Source: Promethearchaeia archaeon
GTDB taxonomy: Archaea; Asgardarchaeota; Lokiarchaeia; Sigyniarchaeales; SOKP01
Length of the DNA: 64,000 nucleotides
Assembly: GCA_029856045.1 (NCBI GenBank)
Contig: JAHQWG010000012.1
Coordinates: forward strand, 124,001 to 188,000
Direction of reading: 5' to 3'
The notes under the pieces are model-generated. The model did no database searches and was not told the DNA's origin. It worked only from the letters and a program-made list of their open reading frames with translations. The translations under genes and the position numbers were made by a program. Every line of letters begins with the position of its first letter. Within the stretch, counting starts at the first letter, position 1. This document shows, in pieces, positions 31,070 through 31,686 of the stretch.

Positions 31070-31191
31070 TGGGGGTAGGGGGATTTATTCACAAAAAGCG
31101 AAATGCTTTTTCTTTTGAACCCTCGGCCTTTAGCTCCGCAAGCTAACGCCCTTTCTGGAACAAAAAGTTATCCATACTAGGCTATACCCCC
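31070..31191 (-). tRNA. tRNA-Arg (anticodon GCG) with apparent insertions in D-loop and T-loop
   Basis: Read on the minus strand from 31191. The acceptor stem is GGGGGTA (31191-31185) with TACCCCC (31077-31071), discriminator A at 31070, no encoded CCA. D-stem GCCT pairs GGGC (31151-31148). The anticodon arm is TTAGC - TTGCGGA - GCTAA with anticodon GCG at 31139-31137. The variable loop is AGGCC. The T-stem GAGGG pairs CCCCC (one A.C mismatch), and TTC follows in the T-loop. The anticodon loop is uninterrupted. The D-loop is 27 nt (31178-31152, about 16 extra), and its insert can pair CTTT with AAAG. The T-loop is 37 nt (about 30 extra) with a perfect hairpin AAAAAGC-ATTTC-GCTTTTT. These look like noncanonical archaeal tRNA introns. 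Confidence 0.82.
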
Positions 31192-31686
31192 ATATTTCTT
31201 ATATATTTTCTTTTCAATCTATATATATTCTAAATCTTTCCTACATTATAATTTTATTAATTATCATTTTTCTATGTTTTAGAGATTCTTTAACTTCTGG
31301 CTTTCCCAGTTGATCCCCAATTTACGAGATCTTATCCAAATATGAAATCTCAATACTTATTCTGGTTAAATGAATTATGTCAAAGATATATTCAAATATA
31401 GAAAATATTTAAATTTTATAAGTTCTTCATTATCAAATTTTTTAATTTTATATGTACTTGATTAAATGCTCTGCTTTACATTAAGAAGTTGTTTAAGTAG
31501 TTCCGATTTACTAAAGAGGACTTTATCAATTATAATTATATTTAATTTTAATCTTTTCAAAAAAGGAAGATTAATAAATCCTATTTTTTATTCACGTAAT
31601 ATAAGGGTTATTAATAAAAAGATAGACCCTTTAAAAAATAACTCAAAAGACTGGAATTTAGTTTAAACAAACTAATTTGAGGAAAT
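31192..31686. other. Intergenic region between tRNA-Arg and histidine kinase
   Basis: About 495 nt, AT-rich. AT-rich TATA-like tracts on the minus strand at about 31200-31235 probably belong to the tRNA promoter. On the plus strand ATTTTATAAG near 31415 is a TATA-like element well before the kinase. A 66-codon frame at 31466-31666 has no ribosome binding site and an unconvincing composition. I saw no further RNA gene. Confidence 0.5.

Follow-up and report, generated by a model that had tools for sequence, protein, structure and literature searches.

Results

The window, by which we mean the entire 64,000-nt stretch of DNA that was analyzed, comes from a Lokiarchaeal genome, in keeping with the Asgard-like host surmised in the original prediction, and carries on its minus strand, at positions 31191..31070, a tRNA-Arg(GCG) gene with two inserts: one of 17 nt at the border of the D-loop and the D-stem (21/22) and one of 30 nt in the T-loop (58/59). 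The gene spans 122 nt with the discriminator A included, and when both inserts are taken out, a 75-nt cloverleaf of an archaeal tRNA-Arg with the anticodon GCG is obtained, in which the acceptor stem has 7/7, the D-stem 4/4 (one of them G-U), the anticodon stem 5/5 and the T-stem 4/5 base pairs, and in which the anticodon loop reads UUGCGGA and the T-loop UUCAAAU. A minus-strand cloverleaf arising upon removal of a D and a T insert had been predicted for exactly these positions, and it is upheld here with exons that are backed by orthologues. The same is true of the uninterrupted anticodon loop, seated on an intact stem, and of the length given for the T insert, whereas the D insert measures 17 nt instead of about 16 nt and the mature RNA 75 nt instead of 76 nt.

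Exon 1 (31169..31191, minus strand; GGGGGTATAGCCTAGTATGGATA) supplies the 5' strand of the acceptor stem, U8, the 5' strand of the D-stem and the D-loop, and is followed by the candidate 17-nt D-arm intron (31152..31168, minus strand; ACTTTTTGTTCCAGAAA), whose placement at 21/22 may slip by one base. Exon 2 (31115..31151, minus strand; GGGCGTTAGCTTGCGGAGCTAAAGGCCGAGGGTTCAA) continues with the 3' strand of the D-stem, the anticodon arm, the variable loop, the 5' strand of the T-stem and UUCAA of the T-loop; within it, the anticodon GCG (31137..31139, minus strand; Arg, reading CGC and CGU) sits in the loop TTGCGGA flanked by TTAGC and GCTAA. Both of these codons are in use (72 of 15,624 codons in 37 ORFs of the window). 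The candidate 30-nt T-loop intron (31085..31114, minus strand; AAGAAAAAGCATTTCGCTTTTTGTGAATAA) comes next, and its slip from 58/59 to 57/58 or 59/60 would leave the mature RNA unchanged. Exon 3 (31070..31084, minus strand; ATCCCCCTACCCCCA) contributes the end of the T-loop, the 3' strands of the T-stem and the acceptor stem, and the discriminator A; CCA is not encoded. Upstream of the gene, at 31224..31240 (minus strand), lies a possible BRE/TATA element, GAAAGATTTAGAATATA, and by eye a similar A/T-rich element occupies the same place in the related loci L027, L038 and L048.

A homologue search for tRNA-Arg(GCG) covered 58 related genomes. Within the genus of the window genome, G004 has kept both inserts at 97% identity; G001 and G002 are without either of them, have kept the exons and carry an intron after the anticodon instead. 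The loci of the latter two (L038 and L048) are syntenic with the window gene as judged by their protein neighbours, and their counterpart of exon 1 is near-identical and directly followed by GGGCG. Both inserts are thus missing from syntenic orthologues with otherwise continuous exons, as is expected of introns spliced by an endonuclease, and both are present in L027. Among the other homologues, L029, L035, L036 and L045 are uninterrupted, and ARAGORN calls them tRNA-Arg(gcg); in L039 the D-loop alone has an insert, at a place different from that of the window D insert, L033 and L040 have the T insert only, and L043 (in G016) has inserts in both arms, its D insert being different, longer and at about the same place as that of the window. 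When the D, T and anticodon-loop patterns are taken together with that of L039, this one gene shows inserts at four different places in a single family. A chance cloverleaf is excluded, as many relatives have the same exons either without an interruption or with one at another place. As far as the sequences tell, introns of this kind are turned over quickly in this Lokiarchaeal family. We consider it highly probable that the window gene, the only tRNA-Arg(GCG) found in the genome, is functional and that both of its inserts are introns removed by the archaeal tRNA-splicing endonuclease.

Interrupted T-arms taken from several tRNA isotypes gave an alignment of 47 columns in which only one row has a gap, and only one, and a model built from this alignment was used to collect further T-arms in relatives, 59 of the 71 extracted being exactly 47 nt long. 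In ten sequences, the T-stem, the UUC/GAA central helix and the intron hairpin together had 89% of cells paired against 75% upon shuffling (0/500), with double changes in 7/7 pairs of the hairpin, and in the 59 distinct 47-nt T-arms the intron helix comprises nine pairs (columns 12-20 with 26-34) with double changes in every pair, exceeding all 500 shuffles, although the shuffle figures overstate significance given that the T-arms are related and were partly picked by similarity. The same double changes are seen in 39 representatives below about 80% identity. A 7-bp hairpin had been proposed for the T insert; it is real, and its helix covaries in the family. The complete fold consists of a 3-nt 5' bulge, a 3-bp central helix, a 5-nt 3' bulge and the covarying 9-bp intron helix, which is a relaxed form of the bulge-helix-bulge and not the strict 3-4-3 motif. 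The UUC/GAA pairs between the T-loop and the 3' end of the intron form in 59/59, 59/59 and 52/59 T-arms, a helix that covariation does not prove because the T-loop is invariant and the helix hardly varies, and since A58 is invariant, too, 58/59 is the simplest assignment of the intron site. When the T hairpins of G000 (the window genome) and G004 were compared by eye, no compensatory change was found, as the two substitutions do not form a pair in the main register. As a separate observation, in L112 (G000:C36, T-arm 246108-246154, plus strand), a CAU tRNA with three inserts (D-arm, anticodon loop and T-loop), UUC at the start of the T-loop is replaced by CUC and GAA at the end of the intron by GAG, so that both strands of the central helix have changed as a pair.

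By its length, position and predicted fold, the T insert of the window is a member of a fixed-length family of T-loop introns. In a search of the phylum, matches to the T-arm model at E<=0.001 occur in all but one (64 of 65) of the genomes listed for the Lokiarchaeal family of the window and in 27 of 163 others, a split counted by hand from the table, with mostly uninspected profile matches making up the out-of-family figure. The tRNAs concerned have about 18 anticodons (isotypes assigned by eye), including Arg(GCG, CCU, UCU), Trp, Lys(CUU), Thr(CGU, UGU, GGU), Ser(GGA, GCU), Val(CAC), His, Cys, Asp, Pro(CGG), Leu(UAG, CAA, GAG), Ala(GGC), Phe and Met/Ile(CAU). One origin that would account for this uniformity of length and position across so many tRNAs, and that is compatible with both inserts being spliced, is recent mobility: the T-loop introns would be an element of fixed length that has moved from one tRNA gene to another, a process proposed for Thermoproteales, and would have reached the window gene in this way. 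Such an origin would also suit the 86% identity over 55 nt of the window T-arm region to that of a tRNA-Leu(UAG) in G003, as well as the varying presence of the intron between species of one genus. On the other hand, length and position could also have become uniform without any transfer, through a shared structure and the selection that the endonuclease imposes. Most T-loop intron sequences have diverged, too, and we give a mobile origin slightly less than an even chance. With the same reserve, it is conceivable that in one Lokiarchaeal family a mobile 30-nt T-loop intron has spread over most isotypes and has been gained and lost within one genus, as an Asgard counterpart of Thermoproteales transposition with a preferred site of its own.

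Two forms of a helix compete in the D insert. The MFE structure of the full precursor contains the CUUU/AAAG type of helix that had been predicted and favours a hairpin that opens the D-stem, whereas that of the isolated D-arm prefers UGGA of the exon paired with UCCA of the insert, giving a D-stem, an internal loop, the UGGA/UCCA helix and a loop, that is, a bulge-helix-loop type with no stable intron helix. The original prediction had named the lack of a bulge-helix-bulge fold at both inserts as evidence against it; the fold found is bulge-helix-bulge-like at the T insert and may be of a relaxed form at the D insert. Being short (17 nt) and the more weakly folded of the two, the D insert could perhaps stay in a functional tRNA and enlarge its D-loop, with only the T insert being spliced. 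This is very unlikely, however, in view of the orthologues with a normal D-loop, of the dissimilar, longer insert in G016 and of at least nine other tRNAs of the window genome with inserts in or adjoining the D-arm, and we thus favour removal of both inserts.

ARAGORN reported no tRNA on the window and cmscan (Rfam) none at E<=1, so the suspicion that standard scanners miss this gene is true for both. Invisibility of this sort would befit a decaying pseudo-tRNA with degenerative inserts, the function of which is covered by another gene. However, a search of the genome with the spliced sequence as a query revealed no further tRNA-Arg(GCG), the low-scoring matches being other tRNAs or the same gene; a second intact copy had likewise been named in advance as speaking against two noncanonical introns, and that reading is thereby supported. 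Furthermore, the exon stems are intact save for one A-C mismatch common to uninterrupted relatives, the same structure is kept in G004, and the T insert conforms to a family with a covarying helix. We take the intact exons, the conservation in G004 and the failure to find another copy as grounds for rejecting a pseudogene, to which we give very little probability. The mismatch pairs A50 with C64 (31123 with 31079, minus strand) and also occurs in the intron-less Arg(GCG) relatives L029, L036 and L041; being common to them, it is no sign of decay and is possibly tolerated or edited. Self-splicing introns are far longer than 17 or 30 nt, and the two inserts are far too short to be rated among them.

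Splicing by the endonuclease, as we propose for both inserts, calls for an enzyme acting at noncanonical sites, and the genome encodes two PF01974 paralogues, alpha and beta, whose genes lie around G000:C15:85544-85777 and G000:C14:9060-9308, respectively. A search with alpha retrieved records from Lokiarchaeota. Alpha is closest to the alpha chain of Aeropyrum pernix (3P1Z_B, E=1.8e-38), has kept the Tyr/His/Lys positions, and its K55-P56-R57 aligns with K44-P45-R46 of the Crenarchaea-specific loop (CSL), residues important for cutting in the A. pernix enzyme (PMC12397907); in the alignment, beta is without the catalytic His. An (alpha-beta)2 enzyme with the CSL is associated with varied intron positions (PMC12397907), and at the level of genes, alpha and beta with the KPR motif in alpha fit cutting at noncanonical sites.

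Discussion

The model that we propose for the window gene begins with a precursor that would be transcribed with both the 17-nt D-arm and the 30-nt T-loop introns. The GAA at the 3' end of the T intron would pair with U54-U55-C56, so that a short central helix would separate the T-stem from the intron hairpin, with A57, A58 and the first intron base forming the 3-nt 5' bulge and with a 3' bulge of 5 nt. An (alpha-beta)2-type endonuclease with a CSL-like loop, probably assembled from the two paralogues, would then cut in both bulges, leaving the exons to be joined by an RNA ligase. For the D insert, the form that is cut would be the relaxed one in which UGGA of the exon is paired with UCCA of the intron. 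The exact cut sites may differ by the slips mentioned above, the two introns may leave in either order, and the mature product would function as tRNA-Arg.

The window gene is a further case of the already published Asgard multi-intron tRNAs. In Atabeyarchaeia and Freyarchaeia, 92-95% of tRNA genes contain introns, more than half of the genes several of them, and often at noncanonical positions (PMC11291895). The likeness is that these, too, are Asgard archaea with most tRNA genes interrupted and noncanonical sites used; they represent other Asgard classes, however, whereas our case is from Lokiarchaeota and features a fixed 30-nt T-loop family with covariation and presence/absence. Crenarchaeota use noncanonical sites such as 20/21, 22/23, 56/57 and 59/60 and may combine two noncanonical introns with a canonical one in one gene (PMC4090602), as in tRNA-Pro(UGG) of Pyrobaculum islandicum, for which introns at 25/26, 56/57 and the canonical site are cited therein. 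Thermoproteales share with the window gene the D-side and T-arm introns in one gene, the (alpha-beta)2 endonuclease and similar introns across isotypes, but they belong to a different phylum and the positions differ slightly (21/22 and 58/59 in our case). From the same phylum as the window gene, a Lokiarchaeota tRNA-Sec with a T-arm intron is described (Mariotti 2016, as cited in PMC5330540), a different tRNA that is likened to ours by this description only; the tRNA-Sec of the window genome (L025; G000:C1:2268-2355, minus strand) has no obvious intron, unlike the one reported. In open PMC papers, we found no description of a uniform T-loop family in one Lokiarchaeal family or of turnover between sister species, though an earlier one is possible, and such a fixed-length family with its turnover appears to be less documented.

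Since several Lokiarchaeal tRNA genes are invisible to common scanners, what look like gaps in the tRNA sets of these genomes are in part artefacts. The within-genus pattern, in which two species have D and T introns and another two have an anticodon-loop intron instead at this locus, offers a system for tRNA intron gain and loss in relatives of the eukaryotic ancestor, and the occurrence of a CSL-like KPR loop in an alpha subunit from outside Crenarchaea is relevant to the evolution of broad-specificity splicing endonucleases.

In the original prediction, D and T introns in one gene had been expected to be notable for an Asgard-like genome. Such a rarity does not hold, given the published interrupted tRNAs (PMC11291895) and at least three more such genes in the window genome, one of them with three introns. 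The tRNA count for this genome combines matches to RF00005, sub-threshold Rfam matches and matches to the T-arm model. Above its cut-off, RF00005 finds 25 tRNAs, 10 of which have an insert by inspection; the sub-threshold matches contribute at least 13 more, most with an insert in or adjoining the D-arm, and the T-arm matches add Arg(UCU) and Trp, each with D and T inserts, as well as a CAU tRNA that is interrupted in the D-arm, the anticodon loop and the T-loop. Altogether about 27 of 42 genes are interrupted, in a set that is incomplete and with inserts not all delimited. The tRNA-Trp(CCA) and tRNA-Arg(UCU) genes are L113 (G000:C47:64266-64311, minus strand) and L114 (G000:C27:110004-110048, plus strand); the tRNA-Trp of G001 (L148) has the T insert only. 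Three further genes have inserts of other kinds: in tRNA-Arg(UCG) (L023; G000:C43:5386-5488, plus strand) the insert interrupts either the T-stem on its 5' side or the variable region, which is another site, in tRNA-Pro(CGG) (L021; G000:C8:48322-48431, plus strand) it apparently lies inside the anticodon, and an Ala tRNA (L073; G000:C27:177922-178003, plus strand) has two or three inserts, one of which resembles a partial duplication (TTCAAGAGGTCA repeated).
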